The position numbers and the translations under genes were made by a program. The notes beneath the pieces are model-generated. The model had not been told where the DNA came from. It was given only the letters and a program-made list of their open reading frames with translations, and ran no database searches. From Terriglobia bacterium (GTDB taxonomy: Bacteria; Acidobacteriota; Terriglobia; Terriglobales; Acidobacteriaceae), in NCBI GenBank assembly GCA_020072845.1, contig JAIQGF010000011.1:414173-458018 (forward strand): a stretch of DNA of 43,846 bases, written 5' to 3'. The stretch's first letter is position 1. Each line of letters starts with the position of its first letter. This document shows, piece by piece, positions 19,435-25,485 of the stretch.

Positions 19435-21054
19435 ATGAGAATCGTAACCTGCTATCGCGATACCGAGAAAACCTGGGAAACTCGGGAACCGGACGTCGTG
19501 TTCGGACGAACCGAGGAACAGTCGGAAGCCGTCCTTAACCTTTTTCCCGACAAGAAAGTCTCCCGGTCGCACGGTCGAATCTGGGAAGAGGGCGGCTTCT
19601 ACTGGATCGAAGACCTCAACAGCAAGTGGGGGACTCGCCTCAATGGTCTGGAGATCAAGGGCGGAGGGAAACACCAACTCCGCATCGGCGATGTGATCGT
19701 CGCCGGCAATACCACACTGCGGATCGGACTGTCGGGGCCGCCGGACGCGCCCTCGCGAACCAAATACCTGGAACAGGGATCCATCCTTCTCCCCGACGCC
19801 CGGCAGGCCGAGGTGGCGATTGCCCGCGACGTGAGCGCGAACTTGCTCAATGCGGTGCCGGTCGAGGTGGTCGGCGAGGAGGCGGCGCGGCGCCTGAAGG
19901 TGATCTGCGACGTTCCCTTGCAATTGGCGGGCAAGACGGATCGGGAAGCTCTGCTGCGCGTCATCGTCGACCGCCTGGTCGAGCTGCTTCCCAACGCCAC
20001 CAGCGTTGGGCTGGTGCTGCGGGATGCGAAGACGGATGCCTTGTTGCTCAAGGCGTTTCACTCTGACAGGTTCTGCTCGGTGAGCGAGACGCTGGCTCGC
20101 CGCGCCGTGGAGAGCCGCAAGGCCTTCATCTGGAAACGAAGCGCCGCGGGCGACCTCAGCGGGACCCTCCTGGAAGGGCCGATCGCAGTCGGGATGTATG
20201 CTCCGCTGGTTTGGCAGGAGGAAGCGCTGGGAGTGATCTGTGCGGATAGTCACAAGCTGGACGCGGTCTTCACCGAGGACGACCTGCGCCTGATGGTGAT
20301 GATGGCACAGTATGCCGCCATGACGGTGGCCAACCACGATCTGCAGGAAACGCTGCGCCGCGAATCCGCCGTCAAGGCCAATCTGTTGCGCCAGTTCTCA
20401 CCCGCCCTTGCCGAGCGGCTGCTGGCGCATCGCGGCCAGTTGCAACTCGGCGGCGAACGCCGCGAAGTGACCCTGCTTTGCTCCGATATCCGCGGGTTCA
20501 CCATCATGTCCTCGCAGATGCAGCCGGACGAAATCCTGGGGACCTTGAACGAGTACTTCGGCTACCTCGTTCCCGTGATCTTCGCCAACCATGGAATGAT
20601 CGACAAGTTCATGGGCGACGCGATCCTGGCCGTCTTTGGAAGCCCGGAGCCGGATCCGGCGCATCATGAACACGCGGTCAGAGCCGCCCTGGAGATGCAG
20701 GCCGTACTGGCGTGGTTGAATGACACCCGCGGCGCCCGGGGCGCGCGCATCTGCCAGGTCGGCATCGGCGTCCACTGCGGAGAGGTGGTCCAGGGATTTG
20801 TTGGTACCGCCGACCGCATGGAATTTACCGTCATTGGCGACGTCGTGAACCGAACGGCGCGCTATACCGCCGGCGCCGCCGGCGAGCAGATTCTGATCAG
20901 TCCTGATCTGCATGAGCGCGTCTGGCGGCTGGTGGAAGCGGAAGCCACCAAGATTGCCACCAAACACGAAGGCGATTTGGCCGCCTATCGCGTTCTTGGC
21001 CTGAAGCCCCGGCGGCGCGACCAGAGTGGCGCCAGTTCAGCCGCCGGACGCTGA
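19435..21054 (+). CDS. FHA-GAF class III adenylate cyclase
   Basis: A 539-residue soluble cyclase. The FHA domain (about 20-98) keeps Gly24-Arg25, SRSH (43-46), Asn62-Ser63 and Asn70-Gly71, so it should bind phosphothreonine. A GAF domain covers about 150-305 (ALLRVIVDRLVELLP, VICADSHKLDAVFTEDDL). The catalytic domain (about 340-515) has metal Asp351 and Asp395 in LLCSDIRGFT and DKFMGDAILAVFG. The Lys before FMGD and Asp469 in VIGDVVN give the ATP-selecting pair, and Asn472/Arg476 are the transition-state residues. It would make cAMP. A phosphopeptide-binding domain beside a Ser/Thr kinase gene suggests a kinase-to-cAMP link. Confidence 0.93.
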   Translation: MRIVTCYRDTEKTWETREPDVVFGRTEEQSEAVLNLFPDKKVSRSHGRIWEEGGFYWIEDLNSKWGTRLNGLEIKGGGKHQLRIGDVIVAGNTTLRIGLSGPPDAPSRTKYLEQGSILLPDARQAEVAIARDVSANLLNAVPVEVVGEEAARRLKVICDVPLQLAGKTDREALLRVIVDRLVELLPNATSVGLVLRDAKTDALLLKAFHSDRFCSVSETLARRAVESRKAFIWKRSAAGDLSGTLLEGPIAVGMYAPLVWQEEALGVICADSHKLDAVFTEDDLRLMVMMAQYAAMTVANHDLQETLRRESAVKANLLRQFSPALAERLLAHRGQLQLGGERREVTLLCSDIRGFTIMSSQMQPDEILGTLNEYFGYLVPVIFANHGMIDKFMGDAILAVFGSPEPDPAHHEHAVRAALEMQAVLAWLNDTRGARGARICQVGIGVHCGEVVQGFVGTADRMEFTVIGDVVNRTARYTAGAAGEQILISPDLHERVWRLVEAEATKIATKHEGDLAAYRVLGLKPRRRDQSGASSAAGR

Positions 21055-21089: not shown

Positions 21090-21611
21090 CTATGCAGCCG
21101 GGCGTTGGGAACGCCATAGGAGTCCGAGGCGCATGTACATCGTGGTCATGACGTCATACTGATCCAGGATCGGTTTGCATCGCGCTGTCGTCTGGGGAAA
21201 TGCGATACCGAGGGAAAGTCTTGCCAGCGCCAGCAGCGCCAACACGCGCGTCATCACAGCGACGGAAGCCAGACTTCGCCCCGCCGAAGCTACTTGAGCG
21301 TTGGCTGCCGTTCTCGCGCACTGACCCGCCCGAACCAGGATGCCGGCGTTTTGCGCGAGGCGCCAGAGGTATTCGGCGGCCGCGACCCGCCGGGCACGCT
21401 GCACCATCCGAAACGCTCTTCCCGTCAGGCGCCGGCGCAAGTACATGTCTTGTGCAGGATCGATGAGATTCTGAAACGACTGCAGGTCGATGGGCTGAAG
21501 AAACTTGCGCACTTCTTCGATGTCGTGGACCGGTCGTATGTTTCCGCGCACCGCCCACCATACGATCACCAGTGAAGCAATGGAAGCAAGAACAATGCCA
21601 ATTAAAAACAT
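21090..21611 (-). CDS. Membrane-anchored protein of unknown function
   Basis: A 173-residue protein with an N-terminal transmembrane helix (FLIGIVLASIASLVIVWWAV). It continues with an amphipathic, Arg/Ala-rich region with predicted helices (FQNLIDPAQDMYLRRRLTGRAFRMVQRARRVAAAEYLWRLA) and a mildly hydrophobic stretch near 118-138. It is not recognised. Its ATG overlaps the TAA of the seven-helix gene by 1 nt, so the two are co-translated. It is the last of three genes in a tight minus-strand unit. Confidence 0.65.
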   Translation of the reverse strand: MFLIGIVLASIASLVIVWWAVRGNIRPVHDIEEVRKFLQPIDLQSFQNLIDPAQDMYLRRRLTGRAFRMVQRARRVAAAEYLWRLAQNAGILVRAGQCARTAANAQVASAGRSLASVAVMTRVLALLALARLSLGIAFPQTTARCKPILDQYDVMTTMYMRLGLLWRSQRPAA

Positions 21612-22438
21612 TATCCACGCCTGCTCAGCAGCTTAGTAAGAGCTGTATTCCACTCCTGCAGCCGGAGGTCGTCGCCGTACACGGTGAACGGGACGGAAAC
21701 CTCGCGGCGCAGGAAATGAATCGTCCAGATGAGTACGCCACACAAGTATGCAACACTTTTCACCCAGCCATAGGTATTGGCGAAGATAATTCCATACCGG
21801 GTGGAAAGTGCCAACGCAACCACTTCGATACTGATGATAACCGCCATGCCGGCTGCGATACCGAACAGCTGCCGCTGCCATACCAGCCATAAGGATGAGG
21901 TCGCGACGAAGAGCAGAGTAATCAGGCCGAGTTGAACAATGGTCGCGCTACGATCCAGGGTCACAATACCCGCAGCGAGGCGACTCAGATCGGAACCCGG
22001 CGCGGAGGCTGCCGCGACCGCACCGACCAGCACCAGAAGCGCCGCCGACCACTTGAAAAGAATGGAGGCAAACATCGTCAGGCCCTCGTAAGCGCCCAAC
22101 CCAAGGATGTAAATTTCGTGAATCACCAGCAGAACAAACATGGCATCGATCAGTGCGAGCGACCAGTACACACAAAAATATTCGAACGACGCTCCGCCCA
22201 TCAGGTGGTATAAACCGAAACGAAGGAGAAACTTGGCGATCGAAAAGAGAAGATAAGCAAAGAACACCGGCGTTTGGGCCGCAATTCGATTGCGTACCAT
22301 ACGCGTTACCAGAATTGCCAGCAACGCTTGCGGAGCAATCCACAGCAAGTAATTCAGGAGTGTCTGCGCGTTCATATACCGACGGCGGGGCAGCATATCT
22401 CCCGCGCCGTCGGTGTTCAAGACATTTCTGGTCATCAT
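21611..22438 (-). CDS. Seven-helix integral membrane protein
   Basis: About 255-275 residues with seven hydrophobic segments, starting NAQTLLNYLLWIAPQALLAILVTRMV and ending YGWVKSVAYLCGVLIWTIHFL, then a 35-residue soluble tail. There is no signature of a known transporter or kinase. The ATG at 22438 overlaps the stop of the upstream small peptide gene (ATGATGA), which favours that coupled start. An ATG at 22375 (MNAQTL) would match the start of the hydrophobic region but lacks a ribosome site. The layout of peptide, seven-helix protein and anchored protein suggests a small envelope system. Confidence 0.75.
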   Translation of the reverse strand: MMTRNVLNTDGAGDMLPRRRYMNAQTLLNYLLWIAPQALLAILVTRMVRNRIAAQTPVFFAYLLFSIAKFLLRFGLYHLMGGASFEYFCVYWSLALIDAMFVLLVIHEIYILGLGAYEGLTMFASILFKWSAALLVLVGAVAAASAPGSDLSRLAAGIVTLDRSATIVQLGLITLLFVATSSLWLVWQRQLFGIAAGMAVIISIEVVALALSTRYGIIFANTYGWVKSVAYLCGVLIWTIHFLRREVSVPFTVYGDDLRLQEWNTALTKLLSRRG

Positions 22439-22587
22439 ACGGGAGGTACCAGAATGGGCGGCTTGCAGATCTGGGTCGACGGATCACACAGCGGAACCGG
22501 GTCCGAGTCCTTGAGAGGGGGCGGGTTGATTAGACTAGTTGTTGACAGAAGGAGTACAGCGGCGACAAACTTGATCCAGCATTTCAC
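22435..22587 (-). CDS. 50-residue exported peptide
   Basis: GTG 22587 lies behind a strong ribosome site (GGAGG, about 6 nt). It opens a 50-residue frame beginning KCWIKFVAAVLLLSTTSL, a short signal peptide. A small proline-rich mature part follows with two cysteines in CDPSTQIC and an end of PPILVPPV. The TGA overlaps the ATG of the seven-helix gene. The signal, the Cys-x6-Cys pair and the coupling are direct observations. A role as a signal peptide or small envelope component is inference. Confidence 0.6.
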   Translation of the reverse strand: MKCWIKFVAAVLLLSTTSLINPPPLKDSDPVPLCDPSTQICKPPILVPPV

Positions 22588-22670: not shown

Positions 22671-22688
22671 TGTTCCGAACTTAGAACA
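22671..22688. promoter_or_regulatory. Palindrome site 1 (TGTTCC-N6-AGAACA)
   Basis: This is the first of three copies in 2.1 kb. It ends 3 nt before the ATG at 22692 and lies about 84 nt upstream of the peptide gene on the other strand. Loose half-sites TGTTC occur at 22607 and 22648. It probably binds a dimeric regulator; the XRE protein encoded next door is the obvious candidate. Confidence 0.55.
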
Positions 22689-22691
22689 CGT

Positions 22692-23081
22692 ATGACTTTT
22701 TTGTCGGCTTACGAGGATTTTGTGGTTAGGACGCTGGCGTCGTTGCCAGGCTTACTCGCCAGGCTGGTTTATCTCGGAAGCCTGCGTGACGATGCCGGCG
22801 ATTACTGCCACTGGGGAATGTCGAGGACATTCGGCCCAACCCGTACGTCGGAAGCACTCGCCCAAGCGCATGCAGAGGCCTGGCTCGAAGTGCTGCGCAC
22901 ACCCCTCCCGGCCCTGTTCGCGCAAGATCTTGAGATGGGAAGTGAGACTTGGCGGGGACAAGGAGAGAAGCTGACGCCGCCCGAGATGAGCGGCGGAACG
23001 AAGCGCCACTTCAATTCAATTCTTTTGGCGCTTTCCCAGCTTTCGCAGGCGGCGAAGGAACCCAATCAGAGAGCCGCATAG
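22692..23081 (+). CDS. Small hypothetical protein
   Basis: A 129-residue soluble protein, largely helical: FLSAYEDFVVRTLASLPGLLARLVYLGSLR, then HWGMSRTFGPTRTSEALAQAHAEAWLEVLRTPL. It resembles a small acidobacterial family I remember without a function. The ATG at 22692 follows palindrome site 1 directly, with no ribosome site, so binding there would block its expression. The last 71 nt overlap the 3' end of the XRE gene on the opposite strand, so the two mRNAs would be complementary at their ends. Confidence 0.6.
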   Translation: MTFLSAYEDFVVRTLASLPGLLARLVYLGSLRDDAGDYCHWGMSRTFGPTRTSEALAQAHAEAWLEVLRTPLPALFAQDLEMGSETWRGQGEKLTPPEMSGGTKRHFNSILLALSQLSQAAKEPNQRAA

Positions 23082-23814
23082 CGACGCCCACCACTTGCCC
23101 GAGCACCTCGGCCTCCTGCTGGTCCTTTAAGATGCGCGGTTGCACCGGCGACAGCGGATGCGGCTGTAACATGATCTGGTTTTGCTTCAGGGCGCACCAG
23201 CAGCAGGTGAATCCATCCCTGGTTTCGACAAGGTAAATGGGGCGTTCATATTCCGAGCGCCACATCCCCTCCGCGACTTTGTTCCTCGTTTCATCGATCT
23301 GAACGAACGATCCCGGCAGCAACAGGGGATACATCGTGAAATCCTCCATCCCGATGTACCCGTAGGTGTAAGCGGATTCCGCGAGCTGCTGTAAATAGAG
23401 GAACGGGATGGCGCCCCACTTGTCGATCATGCGGCCGAGATTGGTGGTACGCCGAATATCGAAGCCCGGGTCCATGCGAACCGGGACCTCGACTTTGGCG
23501 GTACCGATGGTGGCGCGCAGGAGGTGGGTTTTCGGCGGGTCGAAGACGCTCAGATCATTGGCGGTTTGGGCCAGGTTAACTCCGTACCATGACAGCAGCT
23601 CCTCGAAACGGACGCGGTAAATGACGGATAAGGTGTACAGCCTGAAGATGCTGGGGATGATGCCCTTGGTCTCGATATCCGAGAGCCGGCTCAGAGGGAT
23701 GGTGTAATCCTCACTCTTATGCCTGGCAGCCAGGCGAACGCTGGCGGCCTCCACGTCTCGAATGGTCAAGCCAAGTTTGTCGCGAGCGGCTTTAAGTCTC
23801 TGACCGGCGTTCAT
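23011..23814 (-). CDS. XRE-family transcription regulator with C-terminal S24/LexA-like region
   Basis: A helix-turn-helix of the Cro/CI type covers about residues 3-70 (NAGQRLKAARDKLGLTIRDVE ... PLSRLSDIETKGIIPSIFRL). The C-terminal half has a strand-rich part (PLLLPGSFVQIDETRN, PIYLVETRDGFTCCWC, EVLGQVVGVAMRL) like the S24 peptidase/LexA dimerisation fold. I do not see a convincing Ser-Lys pair, so self-cleavage is uncertain. The ATG at 23814 is preferred to the one at 23820 because GGAG sits 6 nt before it but only 2 nt before the other. Palindromes lie on both sides of the gene. Confidence 0.82.
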   Translation of the reverse strand: MNAGQRLKAARDKLGLTIRDVEAASVRLAARHKSEDYTIPLSRLSDIETKGIIPSIFRLYTLSVIYRVRFEELLSWYGVNLAQTANDLSVFDPPKTHLLRATIGTAKVEVPVRMDPGFDIRRTTNLGRMIDKWGAIPFLYLQQLAESAYTYGYIGMEDFTMYPLLLPGSFVQIDETRNKVAEGMWRSEYERPIYLVETRDGFTCCWCALKQNQIMLQPHPLSPVQPRILKDQQEAEVLGQVVGVAMRLSDWVPSPPAKAGKAPKELN

Positions 23815-23843
23815 CGACATCTCCGAGCGGCCTATTAGACGAT

Positions 23844-23873
23844 AGTATGCTTGGTTCTACAAGGGAATTGCCA
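23844..23873 (-). promoter_or_regulatory. Candidate promoter of the XRE gene
   Basis: On the minus strand TGGCAA (rc of 23868-23873) and CATACT (rc of 23844-23849) are 18 bp apart. A half-site AGAAC (rc of 23854-23858) lies between them, as expected for self-repression. This is a moderate match only. Confidence 0.35.
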
Positions 23874-23951
23874 CACCGCACAATTTCTTTCAAAACTCGC
23901 CCGTTCGTATTAAGCTATTTCCCCACCCAGGAAAATTTAAAGGAGCCTACT

Positions 23952-24170
23952 TTGGATCTTAGCAAGATTCTTGATCAATTGAGAAGTGAACGCGCGCGAC
24001 TCGATGAAGCCATCATCGCACTTGAGCAAATCACTGGGAAACCAGGCCGGCGCGGTCGGGCGCCCGGAAGACCGCGGCGGAGGAGACTCTCGCCTGAGGG
24101 CAGAAGGCGGCTGTCGGAAATGATGAAGAAGCGCTGGGCGGAACGTAAGCGGCGCGCCAAGGCTGCCTAG
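23952..24170 (+). CDS. Small basic helix/AT-hook-like protein
   Basis: A 72-residue protein starting at TTG 23952, chosen because aaaggag lies 7 nt upstream. The N-terminal helix is LRSERARLDEAIIALEQ. The rest is extremely basic, with GRRGRAPGRPRRRR (RGR/GRP cores like AT-hooks) and LSPEGRRRLSEMMKKRWAERKRR. It probably binds nucleic acid. The next gene shares the N-terminal helix theme. I recall many acidobacterial proteins with this arrangement and no assigned function. Confidence 0.65.
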   Translation: MDLSKILDQLRSERARLDEAIIALEQITGKPGRRGRAPGRPRRRRLSPEGRRRLSEMMKKRWAERKRRAKAA

Positions 24171-24176
24171 GACGGT

Positions 24177-24194
24177 TGTTCCAAAATCAGAACA
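24177..24194. promoter_or_regulatory. Palindrome site 2 (TGTTCC-N6-AGAACA)
   Basis: It is 6 nt past the stop of the basic protein gene and about 69 nt before the next small gene. The pairing extends to GTTGTTC...GAACAAC, the best-formed of the three sites. An operator for the 24263 gene is likely. Confidence 0.55.
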
Positions 24195-24262
24195 ACTTCT
24201 GGTTTTGTCCGGCAGTGTGCGGCAACTGGCCGTAATCTCCTGTGAGGTTGCAGGGCTAGATC

Positions 24263-24493
24263 GTGGCCAAGAACGCACTGGTAATTCTCCGCAAGCAACG
24301 GGCCTCACTCGACCGCGCCATTCGGGCTTTGGAACAATTGCAAGAGCTCGGGTTCGCCGTCCCTCAGGACAGCAAGGATGCTGCCGTTGGGCAGGCTGGG
24401 GCGAGGGTGCTGCATCTGTGCAGGGAACTTGATCGAGAAGAACTCGATCAACCACCGCCTTTGCCAACAGGCAGCGATCCCGGCTACGAGTGA
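24263..24493 (+). CDS. Small helical protein related to the upstream gene
   Basis: A 76-residue protein from GTG 24263. Its first 25 residues (LRKQRASLDRAIRALEQLQ) repeat the L-R-x-x-R-x-x-L-D-x-A-I-x-A-L-E-Q theme of the gene before it. The rest is acidic (HLCRELDREELDQ) instead of basic, so the two may be partners or a duplicated pair with diverged tails. No strong ribosome site is seen. Palindrome site 2 lies upstream. Confidence 0.5.
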   Translation: MAKNALVILRKQRASLDRAIRALEQLQELGFAVPQDSKDAAVGQAGARVLHLCRELDREELDQPPPLPTGSDPGYE

Positions 24494-24738
24494 GGCGCTT
24501 GTTGGCCTGAGTGCGCGGACGCACCGGAATGCAACGGCGAATCGCCGGAACACCCTCATTGCGCTCGCGACAGCTTGAAGCGGCGCGCCGCCCACGCTGC
24601 GCCGCGCGCTGCCAACGCCGCAGCGCTGCCGCACGCTACCATGCCGGTCCGGCATAACCGCGCAACGTCTAATGCCCAGCGGCTTCGAGGCGAGGCGACC
24701 ACGGCCGGTCAATTCTCTCCTGGCCGATCGTTCCGCTG

Positions 24739-24756
24739 TGTTCCATTTCTAGAACA
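24739..24756. promoter_or_regulatory. Palindrome site 3 (TGTTCC-N6-AGAACA)
   Basis: It is identical to sites 1 and 2 at all 12 palindrome positions. No gene starts close by on either strand, so it may be a relic of a lost promoter or control something too small to see. Confidence 0.45.
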
Positions 24757-24899: not shown

Positions 24900-24974
24900 T
24901 GGAGGCGCGGGTGAGAATCGAACTCACGCATAAAGGTTTTGCAGACCTCTCCCTTACCACTTGGGTACCGCGCC
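24900..24974 (-). tRNA. tRNA-Cys (GCA)
   Basis: The minus strand reads GGCGCGGTACCC..., anticodon loop CTGCAAA (GCA), T-arm GTTCGATTC and acceptor CCGCGCC-T with an encoded CCA. The seven-base acceptor stem pairs perfectly. It differs from the second tRNA-Cys at 25412 in the D- and anticodon-stem region. Confidence 0.93.
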
Positions 24975-25077
24975 CTCTCAAAGACAGATCCTTCGCCGTG
25001 CGGCTCAGGATTTCGCCTGCGGGCTCCCGCTCCCCCTCGGCTGCGCTCGGGGTCGCTCACGCTCGCAAAGCGGCTCA

Positions 25078-25096
25078 ACTTGGGTACCGCGCCCTC
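25078..25096. repeat. tRNA-Cys 5'-end fragment
   Basis: ACTTGGGTACCGCGCCCTC repeats 24959-24977, the 5' end and D-arm of the minus-strand tRNA-Cys, as a 19-bp perfect direct repeat 119 bp away. No tRNA remainder follows. Confidence 0.5.
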
Positions 25097-25209
25097 ACTG
25101 GGTTGTACTTTCAAGAATACGCGTGGGCAGATCGGGAGTCGAGGTGTCCTCCCGCAGGCCGAAATCCCGAGCACAGCAAGATGCTGACACACCGGCCGAG
25201 GTACCGGCG

Positions 25210-25239
25210 TTGACCCGGTTTTCTGCGGTTCGCTATAAT
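25210..25239 (+). promoter_or_regulatory. Promoter of tRNA-Gly
   Basis: TTGACC (25210-25215) and TATAAT (25234-25239) are 18 bp apart, 11 nt before the mature tRNA-Gly. This is the clearest sigma-70-type promoter in the window. Confidence 0.75.
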
Positions 25240-25250
25240 TGAAAAGTTGA

Positions 25251-25325
<75 letters not shown>

Positions 25326-25336
25326 GTTTTCCGCCG

Positions 25337-25360
25337 ACCCTCGCTGCTGGCGAGGGTTTT
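25337..25360 (+). terminator. Intrinsic terminator after tRNA-Gly
   Basis: The stem ACCCTCGC/GCGAGGGT (25337-25344 and 25350-25357) with a 5-nt loop is followed by TTT. It lies 11 nt after the tRNA, so the second tRNA-Cys may be read through or have its own promoter. Confidence 0.7.
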
Positions 25361-25411
25361 GCGCATGGAGCACCCCGCCGTAGACGCAGGATCTAGGATC
25401 GCAGGTTCAGG

Positions 25412-25485
25412 GGCGCGGTAGCCAAGTGGTAAGGCCGAGGTCTGCAAAACCTCCATCGCCGGTTCGATTCCGGCCCGCGCCTCCA
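25412..25485 (+). tRNA. tRNA-Cys (GCA), second copy
   Basis: The acceptor GGCGCGG pairs with CCGCGCC. The anticodon loop CTGCAAA gives GCA, the T-arm is GGTTCGATTCC, and CCA is encoded. It is in inverted orientation to the copy at 24900-24974. Confidence 0.94.

Follow-up and report, generated by a model that had tools for sequence, protein, structure and literature searches.

A palindromic site family linked to an XRE-type regulator gene and a predicted secreted-peptide cassette: a probable activator-like regulon in an acidobacterial family

In an acidobacterial family, palindromic sites of the form TGTTCY-N6-RGAACA lie between genes throughout the genome, stand in about half of the cases at a fixed distance from a -10 element and are linked to the gene of an XRE-type regulator, which itself belongs to a conserved cassette that also encodes a predicted secreted peptide and two membrane proteins and includes a small convergent gene. 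These sites probably constitute a real, genome-wide and activator-like regulon run by the XRE protein, rather than a general damage or prophage switch. We consider it likely that this protein, with its putative XRE/LexA-type fold, binds the palindrome and, at about half of its sites, works as a class-I-like activator; we infer from sequence both that it is the binder and that its binding activates.

Results

Three palindromes and the cassette around the XRE gene

The window, as we call the whole stretch of 43,846 nucleotides analysed, holds three identical TGTTCC-N6-AGAACA palindromes at 22671-22688, 24177-24194 and 24739-24756, as a preliminary description of this DNA had reported. They are its only zero-mismatch matches; with up to three mismatches, 38 matches were found against a shuffle expectation of 22.3 (34 in the largest shuffle). 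The two arms of each of the three sites match at five positions but not at the sixth, where C stands against T, and the palindrome is therefore better written TGTTCY/RGAACA. The features are as follows.

21090..21611, minus strand: op173, second membrane-anchored protein of the operon, hydrophobic N-terminus
21611..22375, minus strand: op275, predicted helical membrane protein with about seven membrane-length helices (AlphaFold pLDDT 86)
22435..22587, minus strand: predicted secreted-peptide gene, signal-peptide-like N-terminus, two cysteines (CDPSTQIC)
22671..22688, no strand: site 1, TGTTCCGAACTTAGAACA, zero-mismatch pattern match
22692..23081, plus strand: small conserved gene convergent with the XRE gene, its ATG 3 bp past site 1
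23011..23820, minus strand: XRE-type HTH regulator, C-terminal domain possibly LexA-like, with two in-frame ATGs (23820 and 23814)
23952..24170, plus strand: 72-aa ORF, C-terminus basic, its end 6 bp short of site 2
24177..24194, plus strand: site 2, TGTTCCAAAATCAGAACA, zero-mismatch match, putative activator-type site for ORF 24263
24233..24238, plus strand: -10 element TAATCT, at +39 from site 2, reading into ORF 24263
24263..24493, plus strand: 76-aa ORF, likely target of site 2, its GTG about 20 bp past the predicted transcription start
24739..24756, no strand: site 3, TGTTCCATTTCTAGAACA, zero-mismatch match

Site 2 precedes the 24263 gene, as described earlier, with the GTG at 68 bp. It is also the only site in the window that carries a -10 element of the sequence TANNNT at 37 to 39 bp (hereafter a locked -10): site 1 has no TANNNT at +37 to +39 on either flank, and site 3 has no locked -10. 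The 18-mer of site 2 recurs in another genome (G001, contig 216), and site 1 has counterparts at other XRE loci, where 18 sites lie +300 to +450 past the XRE end among the 35 loci examined. A half-site claimed for the XRE promoter can be seen by eye, but it is weak, AGAACC agreeing at five of six bases.

The cassette is conserved. A homologue of the 22692 gene was present at all 35 XRE loci examined, and one of op275 at 28 of the 35, some of the remaining loci being cut at the locus end; op173 homologues were found at nine other genome loci or locus sets. By a simple rule, a peptide-type ORF was called at 29 of the 35 loci, compared with 0 of 35 for the opposite strand, and one in G140 was added by eye. 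The predicted peptide is encoded on the minus strand behind the XRE gene, is about 38-60 aa long and has two cysteines towards its end; in many loci the C-terminus reads C..CKP, with few residues in between. Neither op173 nor the 22692 product matched Pfam, NCBIfam or PHROG, and the 72-aa ORF matched neither NCBIfam nor PHROG. For op275 there was no Pfam or PHROG match, and the sole NCBIfam match, archaeosortase B, reached 10 bits where the cut-off is 150. Its model has seven helices, of which one of 55 residues may be two and one at the C-terminus is short; the best PDB matches were seven-helix receptors and rhodopsins at E > 0.05, and we therefore assigned no fold. The gene of an FHA-GAF-guanylate cyclase protein (19435-21054) adjoins the cassette, and three clustered tRNA genes lie at 24900-25485, where two tRNA-Cys(gca) genes on opposite strands flank a tRNA-Gly gene.

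The sites form a genome-wide intergenic family

The preliminary description had proposed a local regulon. In the window's genome, TGTTCY-N6-RGAACA occurs 19 times against none for the reversed control, and the shorter TGTTC-N8-GAACA 28 times against 2, which places the sites genome-wide instead. At least one match to the longer pattern was present in 26 of the 41 genomes searched, with a maximum of 19 copies per genome; the highest counts were 19 (G000), 18 (G010), 15 (G001), 15 (G004), 11 (G002) and 8 (G006). Relatives within the same acidobacterial family had 0-18 matches per genome and members of a sister family 0-2. Counts vary with the pattern used, G001 having 15 or 9 sites and G010 18 or 17.

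A position weight matrix trained on 20 G000 sites, in which the -10 played no part, yielded 103 sites with a score of at least 20 in ten genomes. Their conserved unit is TCT-TGTTCYGAATTCRGAACA-AGA, and information drops to background 2-3 bp beyond the 18-mer, so that 18-24 bp are conserved; a half-site variant, TGTTACGAA, is common in G003, G009 and G024. Ninety-eight of the 103 sites lie outside called ORFs, in sequence whose coding fraction is 0.79 by the same caller. Genes were called with a simple purpose-written ORF finder, and the distances and targets given here are thus approximate.

A -10 element is locked to the site

Of 206 flanks, 60 have a TANNNT that begins at +37, +38 or +39 relative to the site (8, 37 and 15, respectively), compared with about one per position elsewhere. 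Counted by site, 59 of 103 have a locked -10 and 44 lack one, sites 1 and 3 of the window among the latter. By genome, the numbers were 14/21 in G000, 4/12 in G001, 5/10 in G002, 0/2 in G003, 10/17 in G004, 2/5 in G006, 4/10 in G009, 15/18 in G010, 2/3 in G016 and 3/5 in G024. The same distance was found in four genomes that had played no part in its discovery (G093, G137, G067 and G110), where 40 regions covered 15/15, 14/15, 11/12 and 5/12 of the listed sites, respectively, 11 sites of G252 being left out. There, 44 of 46 matrix sites lie outside called ORFs and 23 have a locked -10; counted by flank, the lock is present in 23 of 92, compared with 0.41 per position elsewhere.

Aligned on the -10, these promoters show, besides the site, a T-rich stretch but nothing that is clearly a -35. 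If transcription starts 7 bp past the -10, the centre of the site falls near -59, which fits class I activation. In class I promoters of the CRP type, a palindrome centred about 59-62 bp before the start is followed at a fixed distance by a sigma70-type -10, and the -35 is poor. About half of the sites described here share this arrangement, with a fixed distance to the -10 and a position upstream of the -35 region; unlike in the CRP-type case, the linked protein is of the putative XRE/LexA fold and not CRP/FNR. A -10 locked 37-39 bp beyond the site corresponds to activator geometry and not to a repressor operator, and a repressor-like switch is accordingly not what the promoters indicate. The XRE gene's own promoter appears to be arranged differently, since sites less than 150 bp upstream of it have TANNNT at +55 to +59 (15 occurrences in 18 flanks), which places the -10 about 57 bp away, roughly two helical turns further.

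Site number follows the XRE gene

We surveyed 300 genomes of the family, of which 145 had some match to the XRE protein and 111 a strong one (E <= 6e-56), and counted sites with the pattern TGTTMYGAATTCRKAACA at up to two mismatches. Genomes with a strong match had a mean of 4.04 sites (control 0.26), compared with 0.71 (control 0.18) in the 189 without; at least three sites were present in 59 of the 111 and in 11 of the 189 (Mann-Whitney p 1e-28, uncorrected for kinship). Within 1.5 kb on each side of the gene, 35 XRE loci contained 65 sites against none in shuffles, and 31 of the 35 had at least one. In a partly overlapping set of 80 XRE loci from named genomes, 113 sites were found near 64 loci, with none in the reversed control. 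Recurrent positions are near -225 and -112, counted from the XRE start, and near +360, counted from its end. The named relatives are MAGs of Candidatus Sulfotelmatobacter, Candidatus Angelobacter and Candidatus Korobacter, together with MAGs called Terriglobales, Acidobacteriaceae and other Terriglobia; the order is presumably Terriglobales.

These counts make it probable that the protein at 23011-23814, named in the preliminary description as the controlling one, is indeed the regulator: sites recur beside its orthologues and their number tracks its presence. Neither an even spread of hits unconnected with promoters nor an absence of sites beside XRE orthologues was observed.

Several observations count against control by the XRE protein. 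Two site-rich genomes, G001 and G010, lack an XRE orthologue; 12 of the 111 genomes with an orthologue have no site at the survey pattern; 44 of 103 sites are without the lock; and the targets share no function. The sites might instead be bound by another, unlinked activator, of which the XRE cassette would be the best-conserved target. This would fit G001 and G010, where the lock is present at 4/12 and 15/18 of the sites. In addition, the promoter spacing at the cassette sites is unlike that at the remaining sites, and other regulators lie near sites, among them sigma-70 family genes within 0.8 kb in G004, G006 and G010 (one each). We consider such an activator unlikely, in view of the difference in mean site number given above and of the clustering of the two nearest genes on either side of the sites, in which the XRE family appears in eight genomes compared with three for the sigma-factor cluster; moreover, binding to a palindrome is not what one expects of a sigma factor.

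The individual exceptions are of several kinds. Relative to G002, G001 lacks the XRE gene together with half of op275, the first, while its sites are kept, which looks like a local deletion. In G010, an assembly 89% complete, no XRE orthologue was found even by profile, the search returning only a distant S24-type match. Of the 11 genomes without a strong match but with at least three sites, three (G067, G104 and G289) hold XRE fragments cut at contig ends. The other eight of the 11 (G001, G010, G021, G136, G157, G220, G253 and G295) are unexplained or incomplete: G295 has six sites and no XRE match, though other surveyed genomes of its genus match, and G021, G136, G157, G220 and G253 have 3-4 sites each and no full XRE orthologue.

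The regulator may resemble LexA, and the sites are unlikely to be a general damage or prophage switch

The XRE protein has no family above cut-off in Pfam, NCBIfam or PHROG; HTH_3 of Pfam comes closest (E 7e-4, 20 bits, under the 23-bit cut-off). In the AlphaFold model, residues 1-80 have a pLDDT of about 85-94, residues 1-70 one of about 90 or more, and the C-terminal part, with predicted strands, is mostly below 50. The N-terminal domain is a lambda-repressor-like HTH, for which Foldseek returned the HTH domains of SinR, TP901-1 CI and DdrO at E 0.04-0.2. Overall LexA came first (E 0.002 upward, with the C-terminal model of low confidence), followed by proteins such as CI, SinR and DdrO, with no match at E <= 0.001; when the XRE profile was run against the sequences of solved structures, the best E was 0.21. 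Across 16 aligned orthologues a C-W-C motif is invariant, and 15 of the 16 read CCWC. Behind K49 the alignment has no invariant or near-invariant lysine, and the putative serine position, placed by eye, is mostly Thr. Without an invariant lysine the C-terminal domain has no self-cleavage dyad, and self-cleavage of the LexA type is unlikely. An HTH relative of the XRE protein, with a similar site, TGTTCCGAAAACGTATCA, about 200 bp upstream, occurs in both G001 and G002 (L060 and L066).

The earlier suggestion of a damage- or prophage-type switch, under which the sites would be operators or would mark a DNA-repair regulon, draws some support from this weak LexA-like match and from repair genes behind locked promoters: recA and recX in G010 (L140 and L137), dprA-topA in G004 (L153), ruvA in G016 (L145) and xseB in G024 (L177). 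In these loci recX and ruvA are the second gene behind the promoter, and topA follows dprA. The identities of RecA, DprA, RuvA, RecX and XseB were checked protein by protein, and each repair gene was found in this position in one genome only; they may have drifted into the regulon or stand there by chance. A competence regulon was also considered and rejected, since dprA-topA and recA each occur in a single genome and general support is absent.

The recA loci themselves speak against a damage switch. The site lies upstream of recA at one of 13 loci (G010), whereas all 13 genomes have a direct repeat, TTCGC-N6-TTCGC, 92-217 bp before the RecA match (L338-L350); this repeat is likely an SOS box of this acidobacterial family. 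No full-length RecA match was found in G004 and G016, rated 90% and 100% complete. On the strength of the single recA locus with a site, we put DNA damage aside as the general function. Nor do the proteins point to a prophage: the XRE protein, the 22692 product, op275, op173 and two small cassette or adjacent proteins gave no PHROG match at E 0.01 (0 of 6, the peptide being left out), and two further proteins of the window match PHROGs of unknown function. With sites spread genome-wide, we therefore rejected a local or prophage regulon. Together with the missing lysine and a -10 lying 37-39 bp beyond the site rather than under it, these results make a damage- or prophage-type switch very improbable.

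Targets are functionally mixed

Fifty of 83 locked promoters yielded a target set of 81 proteins, which was compared with a control set of 138 of 139 proteins, the window's own XRE protein being omitted. Pfam matches in the target set included Y1 transposases (Y1_Tnp, 5/81), TPR, PilZ, RecA, DprA, topoisomerase I and others. No common function was visible from the clustering of flanking genes or from the Pfam tallies (best 25 of 115 and 25 of 232 families); exceptions to this scatter are the cassette itself, the Y1 transposases, sigma factors and genes common to two or three genomes. A defence regulon was considered as well: PADLOC matched 117 families in the target set and 94 in the control set, and, judging from the 25 commonest families of each set, this apparent excess is at least partly due to many type I methyltransferase models with one member each. 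Targets in G000 include a DUF3857-TPR protein and, beside a phage-tail-sheath gene, a membrane protein whose homologue lies behind a site in G009. An alpha-amylase gene stands behind a site without a locked -10 in both G000 and G002. At one G000 locus (L025, near 238900 of contig 7), a pair of sites with 85 bp between them separates a phage-tail-sheath operon from a divergent membrane-protein operon, possibly part of a contractile injection system.

RAYT or IS200-like transposase genes lie 51-123 bp behind sites at six loci in G010 and G004 (L127, L129, L131, L137, L138 and L155). Such genes and the five Y1_Tnp proteins would fit repetitive extragenic palindromes tied to RAYT (IS200-like) transposases, elements that have a longer palindrome and a high copy number. 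With conservation ending 2-3 bp beyond the 18-mer (18-24 bp in all) and no more than 19 copies per genome in 41 genomes, we rejected this origin; the fixed distance to the -10 contradicts it, and the other named targets are without a transposase, so that it can be regarded as highly improbable. Chance matches do occur as background (0-2 per genome in controls), but they are a practically negligible explanation of the site counts, the -10 lock in two genome sets and the sites in XRE loci that shuffles lack.

Discussion

In the mechanism that we propose, the putative XRE/LexA-fold protein (23011-23820) would bind the palindrome upstream of a sigma70-type promoter without a clear -35 and, centred about 59 bp before the transcription start, would recruit RNA polymerase. 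It would switch about half of its sites in this way, the richest genomes having 10-20 such sites, and would additionally bind around its own gene. The predicted secreted peptide and the two membrane proteins of the cassette may produce or sense a signal, the role of the peptide being suggested by its linkage.

The WYL activators PafBC and SiwR are described as having regulons beside that of LexA (PMC6789036, PMC10693628). Unlike PafBC and SiwR, the XRE protein has no WYL match in Pfam, and no link to damage is shown here. Among the matches listed from the open-licence literature, there was no such regulon or peptide system in Acidobacteria.

Two other groups of regulators come closer. Like the LexA/CI repressors, which combine an HTH with an S24 domain, the XRE protein has an HTH, followed by a C-terminal domain that may be LexA-like (low-confidence Foldseek match); unlike them, it has no conserved lysine there, its sites have activator geometry, and recA is not generally a target. 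The RRNPP regulators, among them ComR, Rgg and PlcR, carry a TPR domain behind the HTH and are linked to a small exported peptide that is imported and bound by the regulator. The present system is similar in that an XRE-type HTH is encoded near a gene for a small, predicted exported peptide (29 of 35 loci). It differs in that the XRE protein has no TPR match (Pfam up to E 1) and a possibly LexA-like domain instead, in that the peptide has two cysteines and membrane proteins are linked to it, and in belonging to a Gram-negative phylum.

The co-occurrence of this regulator with membrane proteins and a small peptide predicted to be secreted may point to a signalling system not described before. 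We tentatively suggest a new form of peptide signalling in this acidobacterial family, in which the XRE/LexA-fold activator would be controlled by a secreted peptide with two cysteines and by two membrane proteins, one of them polytopic. If so, an XRE activator would switch up to 10-20 promoters by class I contact, and the system would be a Gram-negative counterpart of ComRS and Rgg built from other parts.

Soils are rich in Acidobacteriota, about whose regulation little is known. What can be read from sequence here is a DNA site together with its probable regulator, a rule for the promoters (the site, 36-38 bp and TANNNT) and a conserved predicted secreted peptide, all of which can be tested in a cultured relative. 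If the proposed link holds, an XRE/LexA-fold activator tied to a secreted peptide would widen our knowledge of both groups.
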